Assembly (NCBI RefSeq): GCF_900096755.1
Contig: NZ_LT615227.1
Location: 1,620,169 to 1,684,168 of the forward strand
DNA length: 64,000 nt
Origin: Polynucleobacter necessarius
GTDB taxonomy: Bacteria > Pseudomonadota > Gammaproteobacteria > Burkholderiales > Burkholderiaceae
Reading direction: 5' to 3'
Of the stretch, positions 1 through 64,000 are shown piece after piece. Each line of letters opens with the position of its first letter. Within the stretch, counting starts at the first letter, position 1. A model generated the notes under the pieces. It worked only from the letters and a program-made list of their open reading frames with translations, made no database searches and was not told where the DNA came from. A program made the translations under genes and the position numbers.

Positions 1-267
1 CTAAAACAAGATCCAATTATTGATAGCGTTGCAGCAATTTCTGTTGGCATCTATCAAGGCACCCCTGTATTAGATTTAGACTATCCGGAAGACTCTTCTT
101 GCGATACCGATATGAATGTCGTTATGACTGGCAAAGGCGGCATCATTGAAGTTCAAGGAACAGCAGAAGGCGCAGCCTTCTCTAGAGCAGAACTGAATGC
201 CTTGATTGATCTTGCCGAACAAGGTATTCATGAATTGACCCAGTTACAAATTGACGCATTCAAATAA
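1..267 (+). CDS. rph: Ribonuclease PH, C-terminal part (gene cut by window edge)
   Basis: Reads open from base 1 in frame 1 to TAA at 265-267, giving about 88 residues. The string [20 protein letters not shown] followed by [12 protein letters not shown] and a C-terminal helix is the conserved end of RNase PH, the phosphate-dependent 3'-5' exoribonuclease that trims tRNA 3' ends. The start lies outside the window. It is followed 12 bases later by rdgB in the same direction, a common rph-rdgB-hemW order in beta-proteobacteria. No lesion is seen in the visible part. Confidence 0.93.
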
Positions 268-279
268 CCGATTCTATTG

Positions 280-870
280 ATGCAGAAAATTGTTCTCGCC
301 TCCAACAATGCTGGCAAGCTGAAGGAATTTCAGGCGCTTTTAGCCCCACTGAATTTTCAGGTCATCACGCAAGGTGAATTAGACATTCCGTCAGCCGAAG
401 AGCCTCATTTAACTTTTGTAGAAAATGCCTTAGCCAAAGCACGTCATGCTAGCTCTGCTAGTGGCTTGCCCGCTCTGGCAGATGACTCCGGTATCTGCGC
501 GCATGCCTTAGACGGAAAGCCAGGCGTGTTCTCTGCACGATTTGCAGGCGAGCCTGCAAACGATGGCGCAAATAATCAAAAGCTTGTTTCAGACTTAAAT
601 GGCCAAGCAGATCGGGGTGCGCATTATGTATGCGCCCTCGTCTTTGTAACTAGTGCAAATGATCCTGAGCCACTGATTGTGCAAACGCGCTGGCATGGGC
701 AAATCATTGCGGAGCCCAAAGGGTCGAATGGTTTTGGCTACGACCCGCACTTCTATATTCCTGAGTTCAATCTCACTGCAGCCCAACTGGATCCTGCGCA
801 AAAGAATCTCATTAGCCATCGCGGCCAAGCTTTGCGAGAGCTTATTGTGCAATTGAAGTCACGCACTTAA
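280..870 (+). CDS. rdgB: XTP/dITP pyrophosphatase (RdgB/HAM1 family)
   Basis: A 196-residue protein hydrolysing non-canonical purine nucleoside triphosphates (ITP, XTP, dITP) to monophosphates, which keeps inosine and xanthine out of nucleic acids. The N-terminal IVLASNNAGKLKEF is the substrate-binding SNNxxK motif. ADDSGI near residue 70 holds the metal-binding acidic residues, GxNGFGYDPHFY near 150 and SHRGQALREL at the end are family signatures. Length is normal. ATG 280 is preferred; a TTG three bases upstream is the only alternative. Lies between rph and hemW, probably one operon. Intact. Confidence 0.95.
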   Translation: MQKIVLASNNAGKLKEFQALLAPLNFQVITQGELDIPSAEEPHLTFVENALAKARHASSASGLPALADDSGICAHALDGKPGVFSARFAGEPANDGANNQKLVSDLNGQADRGAHYVCALVFVTSANDPEPLIVQTRWHGQIIAEPKGSNGFGYDPHFYIPEFNLTAAQLDPAQKNLISHRGQALRELIVQLKSRT

Positions 871-881
871 AGATTCTGATC

Positions 882-2069
882 GTGATTAACAGTAGCCCCA
901 ATACAGTCTCGCTCACCGCGTTGCCGCCACTGGCCCTGTACATTCACTTCCCATGGTGTGAAAAGAAGTGTCCATATTGTGATTTCAATTCTCATCAAAT
1001 TAAAGACGGAGTTGGTAAAGCGGGGTTTGATGAGCAGCGCTATATCAAAGCACTCATTACAGATTTAGAAACTGAGCTGCCCAATATTTGGGGTCGGCAT
1101 GTCCACAGTATTTTTATTGGCGGCGGTACACCAAGCCTACTTTCACCAGAGGGTATGGATGAATTACTTTCCGCCATTCGCGCCAGAGTGACTTTAGAGC
1201 CTGATGCTGAAATTACGATGGAGGCAAACCCAGGCTCTGTAGAGACAGACAAGCTTGCGGGCTTTGCAAAGGCAGGCATTAACCGAATCTCCTTGGGTAT
1301 TCAGAGCTTTCAAGATGAACAACTTAAGGCGCTGGGTCGTATCCATAATGGCGCCGAAGCAAAACGTGCGATTGATATTGCCTTAAAACACTTTAAGTCG
1401 GTGAATTTGGACTTGATGTACGGCTTACCCAATCAAACTCTTGAGGCCGCTAAAGCCGATATAGAAACTGCGCTCTCCTTCAATACTCCACACCTGTCTT
1501 TTTATAACCTCACACTAGAACCCAATACTTACTTTGCCAACTTCCCACCCAAGCTACCAAGTGATGATGAGATTGATGCCATCTTTGAGCAAAACTTAGC
1601 CTTACTTGAGAAAGCTGGGTACAAACGTTATGAAGTTTCAGCGTATGCCAAAAAAGATCAAGAGTGCAAACACAATCTCAACTACTGGCGCTTCGGAGAT
1701 TACATTGGCATTGGCGCAGGTGCGCATGGGAAGATTTCTTTCCCCGGAAAAATTACCCGCCAGGTGCGGGAGCGCCATCCAGAGAACTATATGCAGGCGA
1801 TGGAAACTCAAGGCAATGCCTTAATAGAATCCAAAGAAATAAACGCACAAGATCTCCCCTTTGAGTTCATGCTCAATACCTTGCGACTAACTGATGGTGT
1901 CGACACCCATACCTTTAGCGAGCGTACGGGCCTACCTTTAAACGTTATCAGCAAAGGGATTGCTGAAGCCAGTAAAAAGGGATTGCTGGATGAAAACCCC
2001 CTTAAATTAAAGGCAACTGATCAGGGTTTACGCTACCTCAATAATCTCCAAGAGATATTTCTCGGTTAA
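882..2069 (+). CDS. hemW: Radical SAM protein HemW (heme chaperone, HemN-like)
   Basis: A 395-residue radical SAM protein. YIHFPWCEKKCPYCDFNSH near residue 20 is the CxxxCxxC [4Fe-4S]/SAM motif in the form typical of HemW, followed by GGGTPSLL and the HemN C-terminal region. HemW was long annotated as oxygen-independent coproporphyrinogen III oxidase but is thought to insert heme into target proteins. The start is GTG at 882, 11 bases after the rdgB stop. Intact, normal length, last gene of the rph-rdgB-hemW run. Confidence 0.92.
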   Translation: MINSSPNTVSLTALPPLALYIHFPWCEKKCPYCDFNSHQIKDGVGKAGFDEQRYIKALITDLETELPNIWGRHVHSIFIGGGTPSLLSPEGMDELLSAIRARVTLEPDAEITMEANPGSVETDKLAGFAKAGINRISLGIQSFQDEQLKALGRIHNGAEAKRAIDIALKHFKSVNLDLMYGLPNQTLEAAKADIETALSFNTPHLSFYNLTLEPNTYFANFPPKLPSDDEIDAIFEQNLALLEKAGYKRYEVSAYAKKDQECKHNLNYWRFGDYIGIGAGAHGKISFPGKITRQVRERHPENYMQAMETQGNALIESKEINAQDLPFEFMLNTLRLTDGVDTHTFSERTGLPLNVISKGIAEASKKGLLDENPLKLKATDQGLRYLNNLQEIFLG

Positions 2070-2114
2070 AGTAAACCGCTTAATAAATATAACAATCCGC
2101 CTCGGAGACAATTC

Positions 2115-3111
2115 ATGATTCATCACGATTTAAAGAGCCTTATCCGCTCTCGCCTATTGGTTTGCATCGCCTTAGCAATGAGCACCTTAACATTTTCGCA
2201 AGCCGCTATTGCTCAAGCAAACTGGCCCGATAAACCGATCAAACTCATCGTTGGCGGCTCCGACGCTATTGCACGCGTCATTGCAATCAACCTCTCTCAA
2301 ATGTGGGGTCAACAAGTTGTTATTGATAATCGCGGCGGTGCAGCTGGAACGATTGCGGCTGATCTTGTAGCCAAATCTCCTGCCGATGGATACACGTTAG
2401 GCTTAGCTCACGTCAATGCAATGTCCATCCATTCCGGCCTTAGGACAAAAAATGTCCTATAACGCCAGCACGGACTTTACACCCATCGTTCTATTGGGAA
2501 TTACACCAAACATTCTGATTGCCAATGTCGATGCACCCGCTAAAAATGTAAAAGATCTCGTTGCCTACATGAAACAGAACCCAGGCAAGGTGACTTTTGG
2601 CTCAGCCGGCAATGGCAGCACACAACACCTGGCCTATGAACTCTTTATGCATATGGCTGGTACACAGGCTTTACATATCCCTTACAAAGGTAGCAGTCCC
2701 GTATTAGTAGATCTGATGGCCGGTCACATTAACTACACCTTTGAAACCATGGGTGCAGCAACGCCCCATATTCAAAGCGGCAAAGTTATTCCAATGGCAC
2801 AAACTCGTACAAAACGCTCACCAGCTTACCCGAACGTGCCAACCATGGAGCAATTGGGTTATGTTGGTTTTGAAGCTACCGCTTGGTACGGCTTGATGGG
2901 TCCCGCAAAATTAGATCCAAAAATAGTGGACAAAATTAACGCTGACGTAAATACCGTTCTACGTAAACCTGAAATCCAAGCCAAATTGGCCGAGGTTAGC
3001 GCAGAAGACGGTGGCGGCACACCGGCAGCCTTTAGTAAGTTCATCACCAAAGATCGCAATCAGTGGGCGAAGTTGGCGAAGGATGCAAAACTCCAGGTGG
3101 CCCTCAATTAA
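2115..3111 (+). pseudogene. Bug-family (TctC-like) periplasmic solute-binding protein, frameshifted
   Basis: Two overlapping reading frames together make one Bug/TTT-family receptor, normally about 325 residues. The first (2115-2462) has a signal peptide, WPDKPIKLIV, WGQQVVIDNRGGAAGTIAA and SPADGYTL. The second resumes near 2452 with YNASTDFTPI, the conserved mid-region and HIPYKGS. The break lies at a run of six A in GACAAAAAATG; removing one A restores the frame. Bug proteins usually read IVP(F/Y)xxGGxxD after the first strand, but here KLIV runs directly into GGSDAIARV, so an in-frame loss of about five or six residues in a ligand-binding loop is also likely. An A-run indel alone could be sequencing error; the loop loss suggests real decay. 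Confidence 0.8.
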
Positions 3112-3212: not shown

Positions 3213-5118
3213 TTACTCTCCAGCAGTAATTGCCAATTCTTGGGCAGTAAATGGATCTTGTGGTTTTGTATTGACCGGTTTTGGTATCTGCTTAGACTTA
3301 GTACCTGGCATTAACTCAAAGTCCGGCTTAAATACAGTGAGAGCACTCTTGAGTTGGTCAAAAGCTTTGCGATCACCATCAAACTTCGCCTTACCCTCAG
3401 CCTGCAATTGCTCAAAGGTTGTTTGACCGCCCATCACTCGCTCTAAATCACTGCGATGCCGAGTTATAGATAGCGTTGGATTCTTGGCTTGCTGACCTTT
3501 AATATTGGTCAACGCAGAATTGCTCATCTCCACAATAAACTTTTCACCGTTATCCGGGGTAGATAAATTAATTGTGAAGTTCATACCGGCAGCCTTCTTG
3601 CTATCCAAGCTGATTCCCAATGAATTGAGCCATAACTCCGTGTTCATCGCTTTAATCATGTCAGGGCCATTTGATTTTGGCGATGCGCCTGTTGGCATAC
3701 CGTGGCGTAGTTCATAGGCAGCACCCAAGAAGCTATTGCGCATACTGGGGCTTTCCTTTTGATAGCCAATTTGCTCAAAGATATCTGCCAGTAAGTCTTT
3801 AGCGGCAGTATTGTCAGGTTGTGCGTAAACCAGCTTATTCACAATCTCCATTGCTTCGCGATACTTACCTTGCCTGTAAAGCTCTCTGCCTTTGGCGAGA
3901 ATCTTTCCAGATCCACCCATCATCTCTACATATAAAGGGGCAGAATCTCTAGGCGATAGCGGCGCCAAGGTTGCAGGGTTTGCATCCCAATAGCCAAGAT
4001 AACGGTTAATGACGGCGCGACTGTTGTGCTCTTCTAAGCCGTGATAGCTATGAGCCGCCCATTGCTTCTTGAGACTGTCTGGTTGCTTATAGACGTTCTG
4101 AATCTCATTAATCGTGACGCCATTCATTGTTAGCCAAATGCAAAACTTCGTTGTGTAAATGTGCATAACTATCTCTTTGGGTGCGCATTACTTCCTGAAT
4201 GCGCTCATTACCCCAGCGTGGCCAGCTATGTGACGCAAACATAACTTCACTTTGTGTGCCATAACGATATAAAGCATTGTTGATGTTTTTAGACCAAGCG
4301 AGAGAGTCTCACACCAAGGCACCACGCAAGGTGTAGATATTGTGAATCGTCGCAGTAATGTTTTCAGCAGCCCAAAATGCTTTAAATTGCGGGAAATAGG
4401 TATTCATCTCCGCAGGCGCTTCTGTACCAGGCGTGTTCTGGAACTCCATCTCCACGCCATCGACGTTCATAGTGTCGTATGGCTGAGTAATATAAACGTT
4501 AGGCTCGATTAAGCCTAGATTACCGGCCGCTGTATTTTTACCAATTGACTGGTCAACGTGACCAAATGGGCTGCGGGGTAATAAGACGCCATATTGAAAA
4601 TACATGCGACGGGTCATGGCATTGCCAGCATATACATTCTCAGCCACGGCATGGTCCATAAAACCGATAGGCGCAATAACTTTGACTTTGCCACTTTTTA
4701 CATCCGCCTCATCCACTACGCCTCGCACACCACCGAAGTGATCCCCATGTGAATGTGAATACACCACTGCAACCACTGGTCGCTCGCCTAATTTTTCATT
4801 TACAAGCTCAAGTGCTGCGCGAGCAGTTTCTTTAGCAGTCAATGGATCAAATACGATCCATCCAGAATTCGTTTTGATAAAGCTAATATTGGCCAAGTCA
4901 AAGCCGCGAACTTGATAGATCTTTCCTGGCACCACTTCATAAAGGCCATAGCCCATATTCAGAATAGCCTGACGTTGCAACGAAGGATGCACGCTATCAA
5001 AATCTTTGCCCTGCATTGCGCCTGGATCAGCGATAACACCGCCCCCACCAGCAGCCATCAAAAGCCCAGAAGAAAGCAATGAAGCTGCCAATGCAATTTG
5101 AGTAAGCCTGATATTCAT
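3213..5118 (-). pseudogene. Class III alkyl sulfatase (SdsA1/BDS1-type), nonsense mutation plus 4-bp duplication
   Basis: Secreted metallo-beta-lactamase-fold alkylsulfatase that would cleave SDS-like sulfate esters. The N-terminal part (5118-4309) has a signal peptide and the zinc motif YSHSHGDHFGG. The middle contains the dimerisation/helical region (YREAMEIVNKL). The C-terminal SCP2-like domain follows (TELWLNSLGISLDSKKA). Two lesions: an in-frame TGA at 4309-4311, where RGALV is followed by DSLAWSKN in the same frame (family members have Arg here), and a tandem duplication at 4121-4128 (AATGAATG on the coding strand) that shifts the frame before [11 protein letters not shown]. Apart from these it is near full length. 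Neither lesion is a homopolymer artefact. Confidence 0.88.
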
Positions 5119-5222: not shown

Positions 5223-6666
5223 CTAGATTGCTTTAGACGCAACAGGAAGTTGGATGATGAATCTTGCACCAGTTGGCAGATTGGGTTCGTAATGAATCGT
5301 TCCACCATGGCGCATGACGATGTGCTTGCATAACCAAAGCCCTAATAAACCCATGCCCTTCTTCTGACTATCAGCTAAGAGTTCAAATAAATTGGCCTGA
5401 GCCTGCAAAGGAACACCGTCGCCATTATCAGCAATTCCACGCCGGACTCGGTGAAGCGCCCTTCAATCACAATTTCTTTGGCGGCCTGCTTAGAGCTTGC
5501 TAAGGCCTGAATAGCGTTATTGAGTAAATTCAATAGCACTTGTTGAATCTCGCTACGATTTGTTTGCACAACAAGGTTTGATGGAAGCAATTGCCTCACT
5601 TTTATTTGCTTTGAAACAATCTCCGGCCTTGCAATACTCAGCACGTCATTAATTAAAAGACTTAAATCGACGTTAGCACTTTCAATGCGCTCGTCTGCAA
5701 AAACAGATCTTAGGGTGCGAATAATATTAGCCGCGCGTTGATTGTCGACAAGCAAGGTATTTAAGACCTCTTCCTGGAGCTTAGGGTCCATCTGACCATC
5801 GGCTAATTTCTTTTGTAAAAACTGGATATTTAAGCTGCTCGCCCCCAAGGGCTGATTTAACTCATGGGCAATAGAAGCTGACAAAGCCCCGGTAGCCGCT
5901 GTCTTGTTGGCTTTTAACAATGAGTTGATGAGGTTTTCACGCTCTTGCAGTAGCGCCCTAATCTCTTGGTTCTCCGTTTTAGATTGAGCATTACTAACTG
6001 CTATACGCTCTGCCCAATAACCGCCGATGGCAATGTAGGGCAAAGCATTCTTGACCAGCTGCGTAATCGTAAAGAGAATCAATATCTGAGGGATTTGCTC
6101 TACTTCACGTATGGCCAGCGAGGAAATAATGAGAATTGCCAGACGCCCCATTGCAAAAAACAACTCTCCAGTGCTGGCGAATTGCAAATACAGCAATTGC
6201 CGCGATGGAGACTCTTTTCGTTTTGTCTTTAATTCAATAATTTACCAGGCATATAGGATGCTAGTAAGAATGCACATAAATGCAGTGCGAATTTCAAAAT
6301 TGGAATGAATACGTAACAATTCAAGAGTAATTGCAAAAAGGACTGCGGAAGCTATAAAAAAATAATGGTGATCTTCTTAGAGATCTCTCGATTTAGAGAC
6401 CTACAGAAGAGACCTTGCAAAATGGCGGCAATATAAAATAGCGAATTTGCAATAGTGAAATTAAATTCTGGTTTAGCAACGTCTGTAATAGTGACAATGC
6501 CCGCTCCAAAAATAATGAGCGCAAGAATGCTCGTTAACAGCGACCCCATCCAATAAGGGCTCGGCCTAACGGATCCCTGGGAGCGGTAATAGTGATAAAC
6601 ACCCAGGAACAAGCCCGCCTGAATAATGGCCAGAATGAAAAAGTACAGGGCGTTCAAGATCTTCAT
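5223..6666 (-). pseudogene. Membrane sensor histidine kinase, multiply disrupted
   Basis: The three pieces form one kinase. An N-terminal membrane region (6666 to about 6360, several hydrophobic segments) is followed by HisKA with SIAHELNQPLG and by HATPase_c with LLNLLNNAIQAL (N box) and a C-terminal HGGTIHYEP. Lesions in transcription order: a run of seven T at 6356-6362 shifts the frame; an in-frame TAA (6242-6244) follows ILYAW; near 5430 an indel breaks the DNGDG box, which can be read in another frame as ADNGDGVPLQAQ. The G2 box also reads GMGLLGLW with an extra Leu against the usual GxGLGLW. No response regulator is adjacent. It resembles the kinase at 41841 in domain layout. Confidence 0.82.
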
Positions 6667-7666: not shown

Positions 7667-7671
7667 TAAAA

Positions 7672-7701: not shown

Positions 7702-8821
7702 TCAGGCATAACCCATTTGCGGTAAGACGTCCTTTACCAAGCGAAATCCTAAATGCGACATTGGGCTATAAGGATCGGCGCCTCGCCGAGCGCTAGGACG
7801 ATAAGACTGGCAGTAGTCTTCATTACATAAGAACGAGCCTCCACGCACTACACGTTTAGGCACATTAGCTGGAGCGGAGCGCTAGAGTCACCTGGTCCTT
7901 TTGGATCATTAATAACGCTATTGCCGAATTCTTTAGCCTGCATTGCAAAATAATCCTTGCGATACCAATCAGCAACCCATTGCCATGCATTGCCAGTCAT
8001 ATCAAACAGGCCATACCCATTCTGAGGATAGGTTCCAACCGCACTTGTACCAATAGACCAGCCTTTGGACTCACTACCGGAAATGCCTGTTTTTTGACAT
8101 CCCAAATATTGGCTGGCAATTTACCATCTTGCTCTAACTGATCGCCCCACACATACGTCGCTTGATTCAATCCTCCGCGTCCTCCGCGCGCGGCAAATTC
8201 CCACTCAGCTTCAGTAGGTATACGCTTGCCCACCCACTTTGCATAAGCCAAGACATCTTCATAGCTCACCTGCACTACTGGGTGGTCACCCTTACCGTCG
8301 ATATTGCTTTGGGGGCCGGTCGGATGGCGCCAATTCGCGCCCGGAACATATGCCCACCACTGCGAGTAGTCATTGAGATTAACCTTCGCTTTGGTGCCAA
8401 CAAAAACCATTGCACCTGGAACAAAAACCGAGGCTGGCGGCTTAGGTGTACCAGGTGGCAACTGCACACGAATGGTTTCCCAATCCGGAACTTGCTCTGC
8501 CGTAGTTTTGTATTTAGTAGCTTTTACAAATTGTGCAAATTGGTCATTTGTGACATGGGTAGCGTCCATCCAAAATCCGGCCACCCTCACTTTATGCGTT
8601 GGTTTCTCATTGGCCTGCGCCTTCTGGTGATCGCTTCCCATCAGAAATTCACCGCCAGGAACCCAGGCCATGCCTTTAGGTCCATTTGCCCCATCGCCCA
8701 AGATTATTTGCGGAGCTGCCTGTTGAGGTTTTGCAGAAAATGTATTCCAGGCTAAATATGCACCAATTGTGATTGCCGCTAGTAAAGCTGCATACAGGAA
8801 ACGATAGTGAAATCTTTTCAT
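7702..8821 (-). pseudogene. Formylglycine-generating enzyme (sulfatase-modifying factor), two frameshifts
   Basis: A secreted or membrane-anchored FGE-family protein. An N-terminal hydrophobic segment is followed by WVPGGEFLMGSD, HKVRVAGFWMDATHVTNDQF, VSYEDVLAYAKWVGKRIPTEAEWE and GLFDMTGNAWQWVADWY. The C-terminal end (7702 to about 7865), in a third frame, reads RGGSFLCNEDYCQSYR then HLGFRLV. Its two Cys, five apart, match the active-site pair of FGE that converts sulfatase Cys to formylglycine. Lesions: a missing base near 8060 (KAG then IGTSAVG) and a 5-bp tandem duplication at 7871-7880 (GGAGCGGAGC on plus). The catalytic end therefore lies behind both breaks. ATG at 8821 is 4 bases after the stop of the upstream outer-membrane gene, so they are co-transcribed. 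Confidence 0.87.
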
Positions 8822-8825
8822 CAAA

Positions 8826-9741
8826 TCACTTTCCTAGAGGAATGCTGACAGTTGCAATAGTCGCATAGTCTTCGACCCGATTTTGAGCCCAGAACTCTTT
8901 ATAGGCCCGAACATTAATATAGGCCTGCTTGGCCCCAATATTAAACAGATATCCGATCTGTGGACCAACAGCAGACACGCGTGATTTAAAGGCGCCATCG
9001 TTATCTCCGCTGCCAGTATCTGCAGTTAATTGATAGTAAACATAACCCGCAATACCAACTTACCAGCTTTGAGATACAAATTGTGAAATAGACCAATCTA
9101 AGTGTGAGTCAATACCGTTTTTGTAATTGGTTTGATTGTTTTGCCAGTTATACGTCGCACCAAAGATGCCAGAAAACTCAAGGCCAGTGGTATTGTTTAA
9201 ATAGGTATATCCATCGCCGCATGCCCGATACCGATACTAGATAAACTCGTTGGGCTATAGGTGCCAACGGGAATATCGCCAGTGATATAGGTTTTGAAAT
9301 TGTTATTTCCCTTATTCCAGGTCAGGCTTGCTAGCGGATAAATATTGGTACTTCCGTTACTGGTATTCGAGCGATTCAATTGCGCATTTGGATTGGTAAC
9401 ACTAACTGATGCCGTTGTGGTGTTTGTACCAGGCCCCCAACCTAAACCAACATAAGGCTGGCCACCAAGCACCTTTTCCTCTGCGACATATCCAAGCTGA
9501 ATCAACATAAAAGATTCTCTTGCGCTCAATCCAGCATTCACACTTTGTCCGTGTTGGAATGTTTTGGATTTATCTGCGCTACCGCTATAGGAGTATGGCA
9601 TTGCCACCAGAGACCAGCCAGTAGCCATAGGAACGGCCGCCATACTGGCGTATTGGCCTGAGCCATTATCGGCAATAGCGATAGCATTACGAGAAAAAAG
9701 GACTCGAACAATACATGTTGAGTCCTTTTGGGTTTATTCAT
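8826..9741 (-). pseudogene. Outer-membrane transporter of the phenol-degradation MetA (SphA-like) family, disrupted
   Basis: Signal-peptide region at 9741-9680, then GWSLVAMPYSYSGSADKSKT and beta-strand repeats (GQPYVGLGWGPG, PLASLTWNKG) ending VSIPLGK. The style is that of Phenol_MetA_deg family barrels, often found beside degradation genes. Lesions: a frame change just after the signal peptide (near 9660), another near 9215 (GIGHAA continues as YTYLNNTTGLEF in another frame), and an in-frame TAA at about 9061 (SQSW then VGIAGYVYYQLT). It sits inside the sulfatase operon, so a role in taking up sulfated aromatic substrates is plausible but inferred. Confidence 0.72.
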
Positions 9742-9778: not shown

Positions 9779-11311
9779 CTATTTTCCTAATGGCTGTGAA
9801 AAATTAGTCGCATTAGAAGGTGGCGGATTAGGGAATTTTTTAACAGACGCCAAATACTCCTGAACCACTTTAAAGATTGGCTCTGCAGTCCATCCGTAAT
9901 GGGTCATTTGTAGATCTTCGTGTGGATCCATTTCAATATTGTAGAACTTTGGATAGTACATCGGTGCAGCATTCGCATAGATACCGCCAACCATCTGTTG
10001 CCCAGTACCTGTTCGTGCCATGTCTTTGAAATAGTATCTCCACTGCTTCCAGCGCCCAGCCACTAAATCAGGACCAATAAAGGTAAGCAAAGATTCGCGA
10101 TTGCCTGCGGTACTTTTTCCATTCAGCACATCTATCTGATTAACTCCATCAATGGCGCGATCTGACGGCAGCTTTGCACCCAGAATATTGGCAAAGGTCG
10201 GCATAAAGCCCATGGTTGAGAACATGGCATACGAAGTGCTTCCTGGTGCTATATGACCAGGCCAACGAATAATGCAGAAGGTACACGAACAGCACCCTCA
10301 GTAGGCTCACCGAGATCGCCGCGAAACGGACCGTTCGATCCCATGTCTGGCGCGCCCAAGCCCAGACGATCCCAATTCATAAAGTATTGGCCGGTGCCAC
10401 CATTGTCAGACGCAAATACAAGAATAGTGTTGTCCTCTATATTCATTTCTTTGAGGGCATCCATTACCTGTCCAACGTGATAATCGCCTTCCATCATCTT
10501 GTCTCCATACTGACCAATGCGAGACTTTCCAGCAAACTGCTTTGATGGGAGGTTCGGTGAATGCCCCATTGAAAATGGGAGATAAAGGAAGAATGGTTTG
10601 CCAGCTGCATTTTGCTGCTTCATGAATGCAATCGACTTATCAGTGAGCTCATTGTCAATTTCTGCACGCACTGCCAGCCATGGTGTATGGCTTCACATGT
10701 TCTAGCAGTCCATTTCCCTTTTGCTGATTTATCCACGGACCTTTGTCATAAAGAACTTTCTCAGGAGCATTTCCAAACGAGTGTGTTTGCATTGCCATTT
10801 GCACATATGCAGCAGAATCCCAAGAGGTATCTGGAGGGATTCCATAGTACTGATCAAAGCCATGAGCACCTGGCAGGCTTTGAGGCGCACCTCCAAGATG
10901 CCACTTACCAAAGATAGCTGTCGCATAACCTGCATCCTTAAATAGCTGGCCCATTGTGTAGGCCTTACTAGAAAGAGTGTTGAGCGTCCCGGGCTCAGCA
11001 ACGAGTGACAAACCATTGCGAATCGAGTATTGCCCAGTCATCAATGCAGCGCGTGATGGTGTGCAAGCAGGCTCAACCAAATATTGAGTGAGTCGCAATC
11101 CACTTTTAGCCAATTCATCTGCACGTGGTGTAGGCGCACCTCGTAACTCACCGCCTCCATAAGAACCCAGATCCCCATATCCAACGTTATCCGCCAATAT
11201 GAATACAACATTTGGTTTCTTTTGATTTGGGGTTGAAGTAGATTGGGCGAATGCAGCCGGCACAACCATCGTGGCAGACAAAACTCCAATAAGAATGCGT
11301 TTAAATAGCAT
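9779..11311 (-). pseudogene. Type I arylsulfatase, two frameshifts
   Basis: A secreted sulfatase in three frames. The first holds a signal peptide (MLFKRILIGVLSATMVVPAAFA), PNVVFILADNVGYGDLGSYG (metal-binding Asp residues), EPACTPSRAALMTGQ (CxPSR, whose Cys would become formylglycine) and GKWHLGG. The second has LYLPFSMGHSPN and LVFASDNGG. The third, from about 10225, carries the C-terminal domain. Breaks are near 10665 and 10245. ATG 11311 is preferred because GAAGAGA precedes it; an ATG at 11341 overlaps the stop of the upstream sulfatase gene and would indicate coupling. The enzyme needs the FGE encoded downstream in the same operon, itself broken. Confidence 0.88.
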
Positions 11312-11333
11312 TGCTGTTCTCTTCACTTTAAAT

Positions 11334-12163
11334 TCAATCATTAATTAGAGATGCCTGCTTTTTAGGGTAGTCCTTAAAGTCCTCACCTACTTTGATATTG
11401 GGGTACTCTTTAATACTCTTCTCATAGCCATCAATCCATTTGAAATTCATGGCATAAACCCAACCTAGAGTCAGATCCGTGTACATAAGATTGTTATCTT
11501 CATGCGGATCGCTACTCAAGTCATAAATCATCGGAATCTGCGGCTTCACATAAGGCTTACCAATTGACTCAGGAGATTCTGCGTAGCGGAAGATCGTTTT
11601 ATAGATTTTCCACTTAATCGACATCAACTCACCATCAATACCAAAGAATGGATATAAATCGCGGCCAGTCGTTTTACTCTTACCTAACATGAAATTCGAA
11701 GCATCCACGCCATCGATCGGTCTATCCTTTGGCACCAAATTGGATGAGCCGACCATGCCAGCGATTGTTGGCATCCAATCCACTGCAGCAAACATTTCCT
11801 CAGTAACGACGCCAGATGGAACATGACCCGGCCAACGAATCATTGCAGGCACGCGCATACTTCCTTCAAACGGCGTGCTGAAAAAATTACCGCGAAATGG
11901 CCCATTAGTCGCCCCACCAACTTGAGGACTTGCACCGCCGCCAGCATTATCACTACTGAAAATGAAGATGGTGTTGTCTTCAACACCAGCATCCTTTACC
12001 GCCTGCATTACCTGTCCAACGCGATAATCCATCTCTGCAACTAAATCCGCAAAGAGACCGCCGCGAGCGGTAGACACTTTAAAGAAAAGTTTGGATTAGC
12101 CATTGGCAGCTCATGCATAAATGAAATGGACAATATTCCAATCAGGATTTTCTTCAAGAACAT
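11334..12163 (-). pseudogene. Second arylsulfatase, N-terminal catalytic part deleted
   Basis: First gene of the operon. ATG at 12163, with GGAG six bases upstream, opens a signal-peptide-like start (MFLKKILIGILSISF). This runs directly into MHELPMANPNF, which corresponds to the middle of a sulfatase. The segment with the metal-binding Asp and the CxPSR formylglycine site (roughly 150-200 residues) is missing. After a further frame change near 12075 the rest is readable: LVAEMDYRVGQVMQAVKDAG, FIFSSDNAGGG, and a C-terminal domain ending KKQASLIND. The gene cannot encode an active sulfatase. It is a paralogue of the neighbouring gene at 9779-11311. Confidence 0.85.
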
Positions 12164-12315: not shown

Positions 12316-12405
12316 TGGCGGAAGAGGTGAGATTCGAACTCACGGAGGACTTTCATCCTCGCCAGTTTTCAAGACTGGTGCATTCAACCGCTCTGCCACT
12401 CTTCC
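12316..12405 (-). tRNA. tRNA-Ser (anticodon UGA)
   Basis: A 90-base class II tRNA on the minus strand. The 5' GGAAGAG pairs with CTCTTCC before the encoded GCCA end. The anticodon loop is CTTGAAA with anticodon TGA. The long variable arm GCGAGGATGAAAGTCCTCC, typical of serine tRNAs, and the T loop TTCGAAT are present. No base that would break the cloverleaf is seen. Confidence 0.95.
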
Positions 12406-47084: not shown

Positions 47085-47929
47085 ATGTTTGAATACAACG
47101 AATCACTAGAGCAAGCTCGCCAACGCAATATTCATGATGCCCTCATGGAAGATATTGGTACTGGTGACTGGACTGCAAAGCTCGTGCCCAGCAAATCTGT
47201 GAAGGCGCAACTCATCGTTCGCCAAGAAGCCGTTTTGTGTGGTGTGGATTGGTTTGAAGGTACGCTGAAAAAATTAGACCCTAATGCAAAAGTGAGCTCG
47301 AACTACATTGAAGGCGACCTCATGAAGCCTGATACCAAGGTTTGCGATATTGAAGCAGACTCTCAAGCCCTACTCTCTGCAGAGCGTACTTGCATTAACT
47401 TTTTGCAAACACTCTCATGGACCGCCAGCATGTGGATGCCATTGCCGGTGCCAGCCCTAATCCCAAAGGTTGCGCCGTTCTTGATACCCGCAAGACTATT
47501 CCAGGGTTACGTCAGGCCCAGAAATACGCAGTGCGTGTTGGCAGTGGTCAAAACCAACGCCTGGCTTTGTGGCACGGCATCTTAATTAAAGAAAATCACA
47601 TTGCAGCAGCAGGCAGTGTCACAGCAGCACTCAAGAATGCACAAGCACTCAATGCTGGGGTGGATATTCAGATTGAAGTAGAAAACTTTGCTGAACTAGA
47701 AGAAGCCTTGGCTGCTGGCGCTAAAAGCATCTTGATCGATAACTTCAATACCGATCAAATGAAAAAAGCGGTTGCTCTAACCGGCGGACGTGCATTACTA
47801 GAAGCTTCCGGAGGCATCAACCTGGATCAAATGCGCGCTATTGCTGCTACCGGCGTTGATCGCATCTCACTGGGTAAGTTAACCAAGGATGTCAATGCAG
47901 TGGATTTTTCAATGAGAATCCTGGGGTAA
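47085..47929 (+). pseudogene. nadC: Quinolinate phosphoribosyltransferase, frameshifting deletion
   Basis: Nicotinate-nucleotide pyrophosphorylase turns quinolinate and PRPP into nicotinate mononucleotide. The 5' part encodes DIGTGDWTAKLVP, AVLCGVDWFE and LSAERTCINFLQTLS. The 3' part, in another frame, encodes RQHVDAIAGA, VLDTRKTIPGLRQAQKYAVR, GILIKENHIAAAGSV, EVENFAELEEAL and ISLGKLTKDVNAVDFS. At the junction (about 47415) family members have LSxTAT(S)xVRxHVDA; here LS is followed directly by the DRQHVDA frame, so about a dozen bases have been lost. This is a deletion rather than a homopolymer slip. It lies 30 bases after nadA. If real, de novo NAD synthesis is blocked after quinolinate. Confidence 0.85.
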
Positions 47930-52632: not shown

Positions 52633-54279
52633 TTATGCCACTTCCTGCGGGAAATATTTATGAATACAACGAATTGGGTTTGGTGCTGCTTGACCAAGAC
52701 CACAGATAGAAGCATCTACCATCACGGTAGCTAAATCCTCCAAAGTCTCTTGATCCCAAGATTTGGCTTGCATTAATTGCGCGGCTTTACCGGTTCCAAC
52801 ACGACATGGTGTGCACTGGCCACAACTCTCATGCTCAAAGAAGTGCATGACGTTTAATGCCATATCGCGCGCTTTATCTTTGTCACTAAACACCATCACG
52901 GCAGCAGATCCAATAAAGCAACCATAGGGCTGCAAGGTATCGAAGTCGAGAGGAATGCTATTCATAGTGGCTGGCAAGATACCGCCTGATGCGCCACCAG
53001 GTAGATAGCCGTAGAACTTGTGACCATCTTGCATGCCGCCACAATATTCATCAATCAATTCTTGTATGGTGATGCCAGCCGGAGCCAATTTCACGCCAGG
53101 CTGTTTCACACGTCCGCTGACGCTAAAGCTACGCAGTCCTTTACGATCATGGCGACCGAACGAACTAAACCACTCTGGTCCACGCTGCACAATATCGCGC
53201 ACCCAATAAAGGGTCTCAAAGTTGTACTCTAAAGTTGGGCGACCAATTTTGGCCAGTTCTTTTTCTAGCAACTCACGGCAACCGTGATATTCATCACGCA
53301 AGTAGATGTAGCAAGCATCAATACCTACTACATTGGCTGCAATTAACAAACCTTCTAAGAAGCGATGTGGATCGCGCTCAAGATAAGTACGGTCTTTAAA
53401 TGTGCCTGGCTCACCTTCGTCAATATTGACAGCCATGAGCTTAGGAGCCGCTTGATCTTTCACAATACGCCATTTACGACCCGCCGGAAATCCTGCGCCA
53501 CCTAAACCACGCAAGCCAGAATTTTCCATGGCTTTGATAATGCTCTCAGCATCTTTCTTACCTTCATGAATTTCTTTTGCCAAGGCATAACCACCCTGTG
53601 CACGATAGGATTCATAACCAACATAGTCAGGAGAAAGCGCTTGATTCCCACCCTGTGGTGAAACACCCTTCTCTGCCAATACCGCTGGTTCAAAGCTGGC
53701 ATTGTCTTTTGCCATAGGCTGAGTGGTCAGCTTGTTCTTAACGGCTGCTTGCACCTTATCAGTGGTAGCAAAGAGCACTGGGTACTGATGTACCACGGCC
53801 ACAGGCGCTTGTTCACAACGGCCTACGCATGGGGCAGCAATCACTTTGACATTCGGATTACCGAGAATGGCTGGTAACTTCGCGAGTAAGTTTTGTGCAC
53901 CGGCTAATTCACATGCGATGCCATCACATACACGCACAGTGATATCAGCTACAGGATCATTACCGCGCACCACTTCAAAGTGGTGATAGAAAGTAGCAAC
54001 TTCATACATTTCTGCCATTGGCAGATTCATTTCTTTTGCTAATGCAACTAAATGACGATCATGCAATGCACGATATTCATCATTGAGCTTATGTAAATTT
54101 TCAATTAACAAACCACGACGATGCGGTGCATCACCAATTAATTGACGCACCTCTGCAAGAGAAGCGTCATCTACTTGACGACCTTTTAACTTGCTCTTGC
54201 GTCGAATGGTTTCCCTCAAATCATCTGCGGTGGCAACAGCCACTGCCTTGATTTCTCCAGAAGGCTTTGGGTGATTCAT
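52633..54279 (-). CDS. fdsB: Formate dehydrogenase gamma-beta fusion (NuoE-NuoF type) with missing FMN/NADH-binding segment
   Basis: 548 residues in one open frame. N-terminal NuoE-like domain (residues about 20-170): MYEVATFYHHF, VCDGIACELAG and APCVGRCEQAP, four Cys for a [2Fe-2S] site. Then NuoF-like: GLRGLGGAGFPAGRKW (FMN/NADH site), IDEGEPGTFKDR, DEYHGCRELLEKEL, and at the end HESCGQCTPCRVGTG with C of the [4Fe-4S] site. After ELAKI family proteins carry a stretch of some 50 residues with GAGAYICGEE and the PPYP-type loop before GRPTLEHNFETL. Here AKI joins GRPTLEYNFETL directly (about 53250), an in-frame deletion of the core flavin/NADH loop. The gene is therefore open but very probably inactive. 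It is 35 bases upstream of fdsA, same operon. Confidence 0.85.
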   Translation of the reverse strand: MNHPKPSGEIKAVAVATADDLRETIRRKSKLKGRQVDDASLAEVRQLIGDAPHRRGLLIENLHKLNDEYRALHDRHLVALAKEMNLPMAEMYEVATFYHHFEVVRGNDPVADITVRVCDGIACELAGAQNLLAKLPAILGNPNVKVIAAPCVGRCEQAPVAVVHQYPVLFATTDKVQAAVKNKLTTQPMAKDNASFEPAVLAEKGVSPQGGNQALSPDYVGYESYRAQGGYALAKEIHEGKKDAESIIKAMENSGLRGLGGAGFPAGRKWRIVKDQAAPKLMAVNIDEGEPGTFKDRTYLERDPHRFLEGLLIAANVVGIDACYIYLRDEYHGCRELLEKELAKIGRPTLEYNFETLYWVRDIVQRGPEWFSSFGRHDRKGLRSFSVSGRVKQPGVKLAPAGITIQELIDEYCGGMQDGHKFYGYLPGGASGGILPATMNSIPLDFDTLQPYGCFIGSAAVMVFSDKDKARDMALNVMHFFEHESCGQCTPCRVGTGKAAQLMQAKSWDQETLEDLATVMVDASICGLGQAAPNPIRCIHKYFPQEVA

Positions 54280-58217: not shown

Positions 58218-58329
58218 TCCCAAGACTTATCCCTTATCCATATCCGTAGATTTGAATCCAGGGTAGTCCAACTCGTTATAAGAGCGAAGTTTGGTAACTA
58301 CCTTTGGTAACCAACTTATGGAGAATTCA

Positions 58330-59547
58330 ATGGCCACTAACTTAACATTCAAGTATGTAGAGAATTTAAAAGTCCAGGGTAGATACACTGACGCCTTAGT
58401 AAAAGGGCTTCATATATGGGTTAAGCCAAATTTAAAGAAATACTGGATCTTCAGATTTGCTAACAATGGCAAGCAGCACAATATCAGCCTGGGAGCCTAC
58501 CCGAAGGTTTCAATATCGGAAGCACGAATAAAGGCTCAAAGCGCTCGAGATGAATTTGACCGAGGATCCAACCCCCTAACCCAACGCAAAACGGCAAAAG
58601 CAGCAGCTTTTGCAATTCAAGCGCGAGGCTGCAAAACCTTTCGAGAATTCTCTCTAGAGTGCCTTGATAAAAAGAAATTGGAGTAGTCACAAACCCTAAA
58701 CACGCCAAGCAATGGCTTGTATACGCTTGAAGAATTCGCATTCCCGGTTATTGGAGACTTGCCAGTAGATCAAGTAAATATGGAGCACATTTTGTCCATC
58801 CTTTCGCCAATCTGGGCCAGCAGGACGGAAACTGCCTCGCGATTAAGGGGGCGACTGGAGTGGATATTGGCAGTAGCCACCACTTTGCGCCTAAGGGAAG
58901 GCTCAAATCCGGCTACCTGGCGAGGCCATTTGCAGACCATCCTCCCAGCGCCTAAAAAGATAACCAAGACCAAGCATTTCAAAGCGCTCTCTTACAGAAA
59001 GATCCCAGCCCTACTCCTGCAACTTCAAGATCTCTGTACTGTGGGCTCTCTAGCCTTGGAGTTTACAATTTTGAATGCGTCGCGCTCCGGGGAGGTCTTT
59101 GGTGGCCTGCGGTCGGAGGTTGATGGTGAAATTTGGACAATCCCAGGTAAACGCATGAAGGCCAAAAAAGAGCATAGAGTCCCGCTATGCTCAAGATCCC
59201 TTGAGATATTAAAGATTGCGTCTGCCATGGATCCTGACAGCAAATATCTATTCTCACGCAAGGGCAAACCTCTCTCTGGTATGGCAATGACGATGATTAT
59301 GAGACGCTTAAAACTAGATGCTACGGTCCATGGTTTTCGCTCCACCTTTCGTGACTGGGCAGCTGAAGAAACAAGCCACGCGTCCGAGGTTATCGAAATG
59401 GCCTTAGCTCATGCGATCCGCAATAAGGTAGAGGCCGCATACCGCCGTAAAGATTTACTTGAAAAAAGACGTGCCCTACTCTTAGACTGGGAGACATATT
59501 GCACAAGCACAGCGGCAAATAACGTCGTTGAACTTAAAGTCGCCTAG
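58330..59547 (+). pseudogene. P4-type tyrosine integrase with in-frame stop and paired indels
   Basis: Start ATG 58330 with GGAG seven bases upstream. The N-terminal arm-binding domain (DUF4102-like) reads LTFKYVENLK, LHIWVKPNLKKYWIFRF and ISLGAYPKVSISEAR. The catalytic C-terminal domain has NASRSGEVFGGL (first Arg), HGFRSTFRDWAAE (HxxR) and HAIRNKVEAAYRR (His and nucleophile Tyr). Between them an in-frame TAG at 58684-58686 follows KKKLE. The expected TNPKHAKQWL reads in the +1 frame for about 12 codons before the original frame resumes at YTLEEFAFPVIG, so two offsetting indels are present. Such enzymes integrate genomic islands and satellites. This one is probably inactive. Confidence 0.88.
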
Positions 59548-60589: not shown

Positions 60590-61207
60590 GCGGGCAAACC
60601 ATGAAGCAACAAGAAGCTATTAATCCGCCTAGTGAATCTGAAGCAACAATTACAAAAAACACTTCTTCACTTCTTAAGTAGTCTTAGGTTGCCTGACACC
60701 TACAGCGCTACAGGCGGGATTACACAGCCGCTTAAGCCTACATACGGAAAATTGAATAAGCACAGGCTTTGCAGGGTCCATCCTGATGTCGAATATAAAT
60801 TCCGATGCTTGCTAGTTGATGATAAAGAAAATGGTGAAACGTATTTAGCCGCCCCTAATATGGCTGGTCACCTAGGCAGTCTTGCAACTGCAAAGACAAT
60901 AAGACTAGCTGTTGATAATTCAGGCATTCCGAAGTTAATTGGCGAGCCTGATATTGATCTATCAGGAAGAAGAAATCTTTGGCAATCCTCATATAAAGAT
61001 GCAATCGATCAAGCCGAAAATAATTGGGTGCGGGTTGAGGCAAACATGAAGGCTGGTCAGTATGAAATTACCAAATCAAGCAACGATCTTGGCGACCCCA
61101 AATGGCCAAACCAGTCAATGGAGGAATTGATCAATGATGCATTTTCTGGCCGCATTATTGACTCACCCGACCATCCATATATTCGTCAAATTCAAGGGAG
61201 AATTTAA
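60586..61207 (+). pseudogene. Hypothetical element protein, frameshifted near its start
   Basis: ATG 60586 overlaps the alpA-like stop and follows AAGGAGG, a strong ribosome-binding site. It reads MSGQTMKQQEAINPPSESEA then stops near 60681. The rest of the protein is in the +1 frame: LRLPDTYSATGGITQPLKPT, HPDVEYKFRCLLVDDKENGE, AAPNMAGHLGSLATAKTIRL, ending at 61207. A run of six A near 60653 is the likely break. About 205 residues if restored. No domain recognised. Its stop overlaps the polymerase ATG (TAATG), so it is translationally coupled to the polymerase and may work with it. Confidence 0.6.
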
Positions 61208-62951
61208 TGATTCTCCAAAACTTTTTACCGAGTGATTGCATCACACTTGACTTTGAATTCCGCCCCCTCGGGGGCCAGGAAGGCAATCCGCCAGAGGTAA
61301 TTTGTATGGTGGCCCATGAAATCGGGACGGGAAAATACCACCGCATCTTCCAAGAGGAACTTTATCAACTAAGGACGCCACCTTTTCTGGTTGATAAAAC
61401 GGTGGTTATTGTTGCCTATTTTGCTAGCGCTGAAATGTCGTGCTTCGCGGCCTTAGGGTGGCCTATGCCTGAGAATGTTTTGGATCTCTACACGCTGAAT
61501 TTCGAAATAGGACAAACGGATTTTCATATTTACCAGGTGGTCGCTCACTGCTAGGTGCTATGAAGTTTTTTGGGATAGATTCAATTGCACCAGAGCATAA
61601 AGAAGATATGCGCGCCCTCGCGCTTAGAGGTGCGCCATACAACCATTTTGAACGGTCATCATTATTGGACTATTGTCAGTCTGACGTGGATGCCCTGTTA
61701 CCTCTTTTAAAGGCAATGTTGCCGGAAATTGACCAGCCACGTGCACTACTTAGAGGGCGGTACAACATTACCGTAGCCACAATGGAAACCCACTGGCACA
61801 CCTATTGACACTGAGACTTATGCCGATCTGTGCCATTTCTAGGACAAAATTAAATGTGACCTTATTTTAGAGGTTGATGCAAATTATGGCGTCTACCAGG
61901 ATGGCGTGTTTAAAAGTGACTTGTTTGAGAAGTATCTTGAGCTAGCAAATATTCCATGGCCCAGGACCGCAACAGGGAAACTTAAACTTGACGAAGACAC
62001 CTTTAAGGATATGTCTAGGGCGCACCCTAGCCTGCTGCCATTACGTAATTTGCGAGACTGTTTGGCAAAGTTGAGATTGAATGATTTATATGTGGGTAGT
62101 GACGGGCGGAACCGTTGCATGTTGTCACAATTTTCATCGATCACTGGGCGTAACCAACCATCAACAACTAAGTTTGTTTTTGGCTTATCAAAATGGCTAA
62201 GAGGTTTGATCCAACCAAGTCCAGGCATGGCTATTGCATATATTGATTGGTCGCAACAGGAATTTGGTATTGCAGCCGCCTTGTCGCAAGACAAAAATAT
62301 GCTTGCAGCTTACTTATCCGGAGATCCATATCTTGCTTTCGCCAAACAAGCTGGAGCGGTTCCACAAAATGCAACTAAACACAGCCACCCAAACGAACGC
62401 AACCAATACAAACAATGCGTCCTAGCAACCCAATATGGCATGGGAGCAGAGTCTTTAGCAGGCAGGCTAGGAACCTCCAGAATTACGGGCAAAACAGCTC
62501 TTAGATATGCACAAAAGGGTCTACAGGACGTTCTGGGACTGGTCAGACAATCTTTATAACGCGACAGTTGCATTTAACCAAGCAACTACTTTGTTTGGTT
62601 GGCAACTAAATGTTCAACCAAATCTTAACCCTCGCAGCCAACGCAGCAGAAATGCTAAGACTCGCATGCGTATTGATGCATGAAAAAGGTATCAATATTT
62701 GCGCACCCGTGCATGATGCATTGTTAATCGAGGCGCCTGAAGACCAAATTGATGAGGCAGTTTTGGTAGCCCAGGGCTGCATGGAAGACGCAAGTGCCAT
62801 TTTGCTTGGTGGATTCAAACTAGCCAGTGATGCAAAGATAATCCGAAGCCCTGACAGGTTTCACGAAGACTCCGGCCAGATTTTCTGGGACCGCGTCATG
62901 AATATCCTTGACCGCATCAAAAGCAATGAAAACCTTAACGCAAGGTGTTAG
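61207..62951 (+). pseudogene. Family-A DNA polymerase with 3'-5' exonuclease-like domain, element-borne, multiply broken
   Basis: N-terminal exonuclease-like domain: ITLDFEFRPLGG (DxE) and LLDYCQSDVDALLPL (YxxxD). Polymerase domain: METTGTPIDTETYADL, IAYIDWSQQEFGIAAALS (motif A, DxxxxE), NQYKQCVLATQYGMG (motif B, KxxxxxxxYG) and CAPVHDALLIEAPED (motif C, HD). Lesions: a missing base near 61530; an extra C near 61788 (GAAACCCACTGG); in-frame TAG near 61842 (LCHF then DKIKCD, where Trp is usual); an extra base near 62512; and a deletion near 62635, where NPRSQR is followed in another frame by ANAAEMLRLACVLM and the LRNFPMQ-like stretch is missing. About 580 codons. The family occurs on Burkholderiales genomic elements; a replication role is inferred. 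Confidence 0.82.
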
Positions 62952-62965: not shown

Positions 62966-63002
62966 GTCCAATCTTATATATATCTATTCAGAAAGAATAA
63001 CT

Positions 63003-63413
63003 ATGGCCACATACATACATACATACATACATACATACATACATACATACATACAAACCAAATCATTTTCACTCAGAGATATTGATCTTGATAAAGAATT
63101 AGGCATTTGTATGCCCAATAAACCAAACCCATTACCTAAAAGGCAGCCCGGGTTATTCATCAAGGGACCAATTCCATTGGATTGGCTAAAGAAGGTGAAT
63201 AATCTTGGTGGATCTACAGAACTGGTTGCCGTCATGCTTTGGTTTTATGCCGGTATTGCTTGCTCCAAAACAATCAAGCTAGATTCAAAAATTGATGATG
63301 TGACTGGTCTTACCCGTCAAACACGCCAAGGTATTTTGAAAAGACTAGAGTGGCACGGGCTAATCAAGCTATTTCCACAACGTGGTGGATACCCGAGAGT
63401 CACCATACTATGA
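63003..63413 (+). CDS. Hypothetical winged-helix-like protein with 5' ACAT repeat (candidate phase-variable gene)
   Basis: 136 residues from ATG 63003. The ACAT repeat begins four bases after the start codon and encodes TYIH repeated, followed by QTKSFSLRDIDLDKELG. The body reads PLDWLKKVNNLGGSTELVAV, MLWFYAGIACSKTIKLDSKI, DDVTGLTRQTRQGILKRLEW and HGLIKLFPQRGGYPRVTIL. The end resembles a winged-helix DNA-binding fold by eye. A change of one 4-base unit would shift the frame and switch expression off; the present 11 units leave it open. Function unknown; it belongs to the same element as the polymerase. Confidence 0.65.
   Translation: MATYIHTYIHTYIHTYIQTKSFSLRDIDLDKELGICMPNKPNPLPKRQPGLFIKGPIPLDWLKKVNNLGGSTELVAVMLWFYAGIACSKTIKLDSKIDDVTGLTRQTRQGILKRLEWHGLIKLFPQRGGYPRVTIL
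63009..63054. repeat. Tetranucleotide microsatellite (ACAT) x 11.5
   Basis: Eleven perfect ACAT units plus AC, uninterrupted, at the 5' end of a coding sequence. This is the arrangement of slipped-strand contingency loci known in Haemophilus and Neisseria. No other repeat of this kind is seen in the window. Confidence 0.95.
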
Positions 63414-63489
63414 GTCTTTGCATGGGTCTCAAGGAAATTGATTTTAATTGCCTTAAAGACCCCTCAAATATAGTGCAGAGGGGTGTCAA

Positions 63490-63888
63490 ATGCCGTTACC
63501 CAGCGTAAGCATGCATGGCGCCAAATTGTGCGGATGCAGATCAGGATGCAGATCAAAAAGAACTCGGCTTCCCTGCAACAACCCCGCTGCGTTTGGGACT
63601 AAAGCATGTAGGATGCATGGAGCTCACAAAAGTAGAAATGTTATACGAGGTGCGGACCATCCTCGGTATAAGAATGGCGAAAGAACAAAGCGGTCAGAAG
63701 AAAACCATAGAAAGTCATCAATCATATTGCTGACATTGCGAGATATAGGTGACCACATAAATCTATTTAATGGCGAATATATAAGGGGTCGGGAACCCGC
63801 TGGTTATGTGAAATACGATATGAATGATCCGGAACAGCTCGCCCTCGCAATCCTTGCAACCCTTCGCGACCATGAAGGTGACAAGTAG
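63490..63888 (+). CDS. Small phage/element protein with Cys-rich CRMHG motif
   Basis: 132 residues from ATG 63490. The Cys-rich start (LCGCRSGCRSKRTRLPCNNP, then TKACRMHGAHKS) and RGADHPRYKNGERTKRSEEN match a small protein type common in prophages and islands (PCxxPA, RCRMHGG, HPxYKNG). Four or more Cys and two His suggest zinc binding. The C-terminal part is LALAILATLRDHEGDK. Function unknown. Reads in one intact frame. Confidence 0.65.
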   Translation: MPLPSVSMHGAKLCGCRSGCRSKRTRLPCNNPAAFGTKACRMHGAHKSRNVIRGADHPRYKNGERTKRSEENHRKSSIILLTLRDIGDHINLFNGEYIRGREPAGYVKYDMNDPEQLALAILATLRDHEGDK

Positions 63889-63942
63889 ATACCAGTTAAA
63901 TTGACATTATTTGCAAAAAGATCCAATCGTTTGAGCAAATTA

Positions 63943-64000
63943 ATGTGTAAGGGTGACCTGGATGGGGCCCATTCTAAAAATGGGGGGTGCCGGGTGGGTG
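63943..64000 (+). CDS. Start of a possible gene running off the window
   Basis: ATG 63943 reads MCKGDLDGAHSKNGGCRVG to the edge. The GGCRVG end recalls the GGARPGAGRP opening of some phage small-terminase and related proteins, but too little is visible to name it. A TTG at 63931 is an alternative start. No strong ribosome-binding site. Confidence 0.3.
   Translation, partial: MCKGDLDGAHSKNGGCRVG

Follow-up and report, generated by a model that had tools for sequence, protein, structure and literature searches.

Probable reductive gene decay in a 64-kb window of a Polynucleobacter chromosome

This report concerns gene decay in a window of 64,000 nucleotides, by which we mean the whole stretch of DNA analysed (C1:1620169-1684168 of genome G000). 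The source genome is a single contig of 1,705,691 bp with a completeness of 99.98. A sequence-only reading had taken it for a reduced, possibly host-dependent, Polynucleobacter-like genome with about twenty broken genes in the window. The genus search covered 186 genomes; individual genomes are cited by handles such as G081. The assignment to Polynucleobacter was borne out; records of that genus are among the best named matches, the named records closest by pgi are Polynucleobacter, and the remaining close ones are metagenome bins. Genome G081 is the sister, with 94% DNA identity across pgi and the phosphohexomutase gene, compared to 80% for the next genome. Outside one giant gene, window and sister are mostly 91-97% identical (~95% overall). 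Gene order in G000 and G081 agrees round the circle in the overlapping stretches compared. The sister genome measures 1,921,418 bp. Hence, the description of G000 as reduced also holds (1.71 Mb versus 1.92 Mb).

Lesions in the window were checked one by one, by gene-by-gene alignment to G081, which carries single open reading frames (ORFs) where the window genes lie in pieces. Breakage is indeed widespread, but we count 16 damaged genes rather than about twenty. The count is lower because 14 "broken" pieces belong to one giant gene and because a 14-bp repeat lies beside an intact tRNA gene. Ten of the 24 window genes of at most 2500 amino acids (aa) contain a clean frame lesion or nonsense codon. 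The six further damaged genes are nadB, fdsB, a giant two-partner-secretion (TPS) exoprotein gene, a second sulfatase remnant, an integrase and a polymerase. An ORF of 100 aa at 57181-57508, broken by our loose rule only, was left out of the 16. All genes previously called clean are open: rdgB, hemW, pgi, the phosphohexomutase gene, nadA, tpsB and the DUF748 gene. Also open are a response regulator gene, the gene at 6707-7666 and a phasin gene.

The left part of the window is a run of broken genes. A TctC-type receptor gene (2115..3111, + strand; PF03401) has a frame lesion near 2429 and a 15-bp in-frame loss; the sister ORF is 336 aa. The alkylsulfatase gene (3213..5118, - strand; PF14863, PF14864) combines a 4-bp duplication (4121-4128), a nonsense codon (4309-4311) and a 207-bp in-frame loss. 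It is a 702-aa ORF in G081 and intact in G078 and G132. Two frame lesions and a nonsense codon (6242-6244) break a sensor histidine kinase gene (5226..6666, - strand; PF02518, PF00512; 481 aa in G081). A gene of the FGE-sulfatase type (7720..8824, - strand; PF03781; 371 aa in G081) carries a 5-bp duplication (7871-7880) and a 4-bp loss. Next to it, an unnamed gene (8829..9741, - strand; 320 aa in G081) has losses of 34 and 13 bp and a nonsense codon near 9062. The sulfatase gene that follows (9779..11320, - strand; PF00884; 512 aa in G081) has 4-bp and 2-bp tandem duplications, and its 5' end is too diverged for a clean reading. Beside it lies the C-terminal remnant of a second sulfatase (11334..12077, - strand), which has no counterpart in G081 at this place. 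An FAD-dependent oxidoreductase (DAO) gene (12456..13588, - strand) has two frame lesions. This gene is intact in G081, G078, G132 and G091, and is broken in G050 and G034 too.

Between the sulfatase remnant and the DAO gene lies tRNA-Ser(TGA) (12316..12405, or to 12423 with the repeat; - strand). The 14-bp tandem duplication here (12396-12423) is genuine, and G081 lacks it. We rejected it as a gene lesion; it sits at the 5' end of the tRNA, which ARAGORN still calls, and breaks no gene.

Further right, two 1-bp insertions break an unnamed 480-aa gene (41841..43282, + strand). The genes for synthesis of nicotinamide adenine dinucleotide (NAD) and for formate dehydrogenase follow. Briefly, nadA (45927..47054, + strand) is intact, nadC (47085..47929, + strand) has lost 13 bp at codon 113, and nadB (47936..49589, - strand) has a 1-bp frame lesion at codon 34. 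The nadB lesion was missing from the sequence-only reading and belongs among the damaged genes. Of all the lesions it is the weakest: a single base added to a short run of C, followed by an ORF of 513 aa. The formate dehydrogenase alpha gene fdsA (49700..52598, - strand) carries an 8-bp duplication (50528-50543) and a 2-bp duplication near 49974. Its neighbour fdsB (52633..54279, - strand) is damaged by a 156-bp in-frame loss.

Most individual lesions proposed beforehand thus survived comparison with the sister. These are the 4-, 5- and 8-bp tandem duplications, the in-frame stops at 4309, 6242 and about 9061, and the internal deletions in nadC and fdsB. Two further stops were likewise found, at 22397, in a frame shared with the next piece of the giant gene, and at 58684, a TAG inside the integrase gene. 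The stop proposed at about 61842 is present but is not a lone nonsense change. Six stops lie between 61552 and 61840, this one among them, so the stretch is out of frame rather than hit once. For the supposed deletions in the second sulfatase and the polymerase, no intact reference was found in G081 at this place.

No spare genes were found to cover the damage to NAD synthesis. We rejected a backup nadB or nadC copy; no second copy of nadC was found in the G000 genome, and for nadB the sole other match is a 36% paralogue. The nadC break separates two ORFs (166 and 170 aa) that overlap, and a split yet working NadC or NadB enzyme may exist. Downstream in the pathway, nadE retains a full 541-aa frame. 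Among eight genomes, including G081 and other intact ones, none matched the NAPRTase or PnuC families; E. coli was one of the positive controls used for both. A search with PF03219, for NTT-type nucleotide import, gave no match; its controls were silent too and it is uninformative.

The same modules have decayed elsewhere in the genus. We compared the same region in other genomes (40 kb each for G038, G067 and G064). In G033 (1.55 Mb), G050 (1.66 Mb) and G034 (1.70 Mb), nadA, nadB, fdsA and fdsB are broken or largely gone, at sites other than those in G000. The nadC gene is also broken in G033 and G050, again at other sites. In all, four genomes carry damage, through different lesions, in two or more of nadA, nadB and nadC. 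We infer that these cells would import a late NAD precursor or NAD itself. When G033, G050 and G034 were aligned to G081 at the nucleotide level, the heavily decayed fdsA, fdsB and nadB gave noisy results, and lesion counts from them were not used. All five genes are whole in G038, G067, G064, G078, G132 and G091. In G036, fdsB and the DAO gene are interrupted. A genus-wide search matched nadC in 172 of 186 genomes, a figure not used as a count of breakage; among the matches listed, split or repeated ones occur in G000, G033 and G050, but in others too. Internal stops were called in nadE of G034 (C1:1071656-1073269) and G050 (C1:24476-26083). The last NAD step may fail too in these two genomes.

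To gauge breakage beyond the window, we sampled 504 kb of G000, which is 30% of the genome. The G081 stretches used for comparison contain 873 ORFs of at least 100 aa, of which 453 were matched in the G000 sample. ORFs above 2500 aa, below 80% identity, less than half covered or cut by an edge were dropped, leaving 353 scorable. By a strict rule, requiring a clean frame lesion or nonsense codon, 59 of the 353 are broken; by a loose rule, 97 are. The broken share is therefore 17% by the strict rule, or roughly every sixth gene, and 27% by the loose rule, or roughly every fourth. With genes of G078 as third-party references, 54 of 297 could be scored in both G000 and G081. Of these, 36 are intact in both, 17 are broken in G000 only, one is broken in both and none is broken in G081 only (18/54 versus 1/54). 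Lesions cluster by gene. No lesion was found in 287 of the 353 genes, compared to an expected 270 and a maximum of 281 in 5000 random placements. We set aside as circular one further argument, namely that 27 of 30 indels in unbroken genes have lengths divisible by three, because such genes had been defined by having no frame lesions.

Functions broken in the window comprise sulfatases, a sulfatase-modifying type, a sensor kinase, the TctC receptor, an oxidoreductase, NAD synthesis, formate dehydrogenase and a giant surface protein. Elsewhere, the strictly broken genes include those for glutamate synthase (gltB), thiC, a thiD-type gene, thiO, a RelA/SpoT gene, pilQ, RNase R, soxC, livM with the neighbouring periplasmic binding protein, and an RND pump. 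Intact genes of the sample include metG, purF, argJ, aroK and ccoN. Genes were chosen for annotation by hand, not randomly; annotation covered 10 of 20 sampled loosely broken genes from outside the window (6 of these 10 strictly broken too), 10 of 20 sampled intact genes, and 20 of 40 further strictly broken genes. This pattern of loss is what one expects if a cell's surroundings are constant and rich in nutrients. The RelA/SpoT-family gene (G081 L013:5842-8232), frame-broken in G000, lies just upstream of the window.

We characterised the inactivating mutations using 76 clean frame-breaking indels in the loosely broken genes. They comprise 23 single-base changes (six in runs of at least 4), 32 tandem duplications of at least 2 bp, three other insertions and 18 deletions of at least 2 bp. 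Insertions thus account for 53 of the 76. Counting all clean indels in the same genes, there are 67 insertions and 35 deletions, with 1749 bp deleted versus 193 bp gained. The unfiltered list, which includes alignment noise, has 170 insertions and 118 deletions. Short insertions typically copy adjoining sequence; here, 45 of 49 insertions of at least 2 bp are exact tandem copies. It is unusual, against the usual deletion bias, that insertions lead and are mainly tandem duplications of at least 2 bp. For Salmonella, PMC2916853 attributes 17% of 346 pseudogenes to insertion; that figure is per pseudogene and includes nonsense changes, ours is per indel, and the two are not like for like.

The direction of each indel was scored as longer in G000 versus longer in G081. 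Intergenic DNA served as a control that is not under coding selection; tandem-copy indels there are longer in G000 18 times and in G081 5 times (p = 0.011). The intergenic controls gave 10 versus 11 for 1-bp indels and 2 versus 6 for non-repeat indels. The tandem excess recurs in unbroken genes (14/0), strictly broken genes (38/2), giant genes (3/0) and unscored ORFs (9/0). Measured against the 1-bp control, the intergenic tandem contrast has p = 0.06, and p = 0.008 with unbroken genes added. A lineage-specific duplication bias is thus suggested rather than demonstrated, and weaker selection explains part of the excess. As a tentative proposal, which we hold to be rather less than an even bet, a mutation process particular to this lineage would favour tandem duplications of 2-14 bp. 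Insertion would then be the chief route of gene loss, opposite to the deletion bias of bacteria. The loss of a repair function on host entry perhaps lies behind such a process. A literature search on whether tandem duplications give rise to pseudogenes in endosymbionts or in bacteria found no paper on point, judged by title and start of abstract; this is no proof of absence.

Relaxed selection, also proposed from the letters of the window, is evident along the whole G000 branch. The ratio of non-synonymous to synonymous changes (N/S) was measured where an outgroup was available, which was so for 55 of the 353 genes (18 broken, 37 intact). On the G000 branch it is 0.227 for intact and 0.249 for broken genes; on the G081 branch the values are 0.079 and 0.097. 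Across the 55 genes, G000 versus G081 has 228 versus 88 non-synonymous and 969 versus 1023 synonymous changes (pooled odds ratio 2.7). Hence, the excess over the sister is clear and includes intact genes, whereas the expected excess in broken over intact genes is lacking (p = 0.55). The test marks weak selection over the whole branch, not something extra in broken genes. Equal ratios imply that the breaks are recent or that selection is weak everywhere. Replacement changes in G000 comprise 166 transitions and 62 transversions, a transition-rich pattern unlike random base errors.

The 16S gene of G000 is 98.9-99.5% identical to those of six relatives, with 98.9% to G036. Among these seven genomes, private 16S substitutions number 8 in G000, 7 in G050, 7 in G036, 3 in G034, 1 in G078 and none in G081 or G067; for G033 there was no 16S match. 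The 7-8 private changes in G000, G050 and G036 point to rapid evolution of rRNA in several lineages, G036 included, though most of its tested genes are intact.

We consider it very likely that the window belongs to the chromosome of a freshwater Polynucleobacter bacterium in early-to-middle reductive decay, of the type of P. necessarius, an obligate endosymbiont in the cytoplasm of Euplotes ciliates. In this genus, Euplotes symbionts are described in a 2024 review (PMC11253213) as having genomes of 1.7-1.8 Mb with fewer coding bases and more pseudogenes, independent origins, drift as the driver, and loss of nitrate and sulfate assimilation. The label PnecC is taken from the same source. According to PMC5632650, P. 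necessarius has 269 pseudogenes (~18%) and no mobile elements, the latter perhaps for one strain only. G000 resembles these symbionts in genus, in high 16S identity to relatives, in its 1.7 Mb, in having 17-27% of sampled genes broken, in weaker selection seen as a raised non-synonymous rate, and in parallel losses across several genomes. Unlike them, G000 keeps a full sulfite reductase frame, has an integrase-bearing stretch and is known here from the genome alone. G000 may itself be among the symbiont genomes already published. Host dependence, raised earlier as a possibility, gains support by inference: vitamin and nitrogen genes are broken, decay runs in parallel in three other genomes, and the genome matches the Euplotes symbionts. 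The broken NAD, thiamine and glutamate genes, with two NAD-salvage families not found, suggest that such dependence may exist. Within a host, confinement at a small effective population size would allow slightly harmful mutations to be fixed by drift. Selection on the genes for NAD, thiamine and nitrogen compounds would fall away where the host supplied these. Among inactivating indels, short tandem duplications come first and deletions second.

Several points weigh against decay of the P. necessarius type. It is known here from assembled sequence alone. Of the 97 loosely broken genes, 38 have no clean lesion and may reflect divergence. In the NAD pathway, nadA and nadE are intact, and one base accounts for the lesion in nadB. 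Beyond the nad locus, breakage refers to the copy at each site, and other copies may exist. N/S, as noted, does not rise from intact to broken genes. The integrase-bearing stretch is present though P. necessarius is said to lack mobile elements. Finally, sulfite reductase (NIR_SIR, the sole family searched for nitrate and sulfate assimilation) has an open 590-aa frame in G000. In G033 and G050 the NIR_SIR frames are short (179-280 aa). G000 looks like an earlier stage of decay than G033 and G050, because it keeps the full sulfite reductase frame and because its nad and fds genes are better preserved.

Three other explanations were weighed. Sequencing or assembly error could make intact genes look broken; 23 of the 76 indels are single bases, and the nadB lesion is of that type. 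However, six of the 76 are single bases in runs of at least 4, and 32 are tandem duplications of at least 2 bp. Also against error are lesions clustered by gene, substitutions that are transition-rich and under weaker selection, an accelerated 16S gene and the same modules being broken in three other assemblies. We rejected a homopolymer or assembly artefact on the indel spectrum, gene clustering and transition-rich substitutions, and regard error as highly improbable. The earlier claim that the decay is genuine therefore agrees with the indel spectrum, clustering, substitutions, 16S and the other assemblies.

Streamlining of a free-living genome, with no dependence on a host, would also give a small chromosome, and the genus includes small genomes without such decay (G038, 1.67 Mb; G067, 1.71 Mb; G064, 1.77 Mb). 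In the 40 kb compared for each, these same genomes keep nadA/B/C and fdsA/B intact, and G067 has no private 16S changes. We rejected genome size alone as the cause, since all three are small yet intact at the nad and fds loci. Streamlining predicts neither many young pseudogenes nor weaker selection; a streamlined free-living genome would be small with few pseudogenes and strong selection, a profile G000 does not have. We consider it improbable. A recently bottlenecked or laboratory-passaged free-living strain is scarcely credible. It would fit the similar N/S of broken and intact genes, among which many breaks may be young, but eight private 16S changes, ~5% divergence and an N/S excess across the branch are too much for passage.

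The kind of decay is already known; the insertion-led spectrum is a new detail. SOPE, a nascent insect symbiont, is likewise young; it is rich in pseudogenes, and selection is relaxed on its intact genes (PMC3914690). The same source reports expansion of insertion sequences and a rearranged genome for SOPE, whereas G000 and its sister share their gene order in every stretch compared, and the indels that break genes are most often short tandem duplications. Salmonella pseudogenes share short indels and nonsense changes as main lesions (PMC2916853), and differ in that insertion made 17% of pseudogenes there and 53 of 76 indels here, in different counting units. The value of the system is that a genome in mid-decay stands beside a collinear, mostly intact sister at 95% identity, so that single inactivating mutations can be read, as is rarely so in older symbionts. 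NAD synthesis is damaged repeatedly, and at different sites, in four small genomes, which yields a specific and testable proposal on what a host would supply. The rule that deletion is the main origin of bacterial pseudogenes would have to be qualified in view of the insertion-led spectrum.

The largest damaged gene encodes the giant TPS exoprotein and lies in 14 consecutive ORF pieces (16704..41563, - strand). NCBIfam adhes_NPXG matches the piece at 40589-41563. In G081, two giant exoprotein ORFs lie side by side (9629 and 6668 aa), and pieces were compared with both by blastp. The leading two pieces correspond to the beginning of the 6668-aa giant (97% over 323 residues and 76% over 629). 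The nine at the other end align with residues 5103-9628 of the 9629-aa giant, at 82-99%. Three middle pieces have a good match to neither. The simplest reading is that a deletion would have fused two repeat-rich paralogues, with later decay into 14 pieces; alternatively, there may have been a duplication in G081. The tpsB gene, still open, likely encodes the partner transporter.

At the right edge, the window departs from G081 at 58.2 kb, and similarity returns 5.5 kb beyond the window end. The ~11 kb between would be either extra here or lost in G081. Its first gene encodes a phage-type integrase (58291..59547, + strand), interrupted by the TAG mentioned above. A broken phage-like family A DNA polymerase gene follows (61207..62951, + strand), with PF00476 on two pieces and a best phage match of 37% identity. 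Within the window, no tRNA was called next to this stretch. Elsewhere in G000, C1:960001-980000 has a G+C content of 41.5%, compared to 45-47% in other sampled stretches. It includes three N and only three scored orthologues, and is possibly a genomic island.

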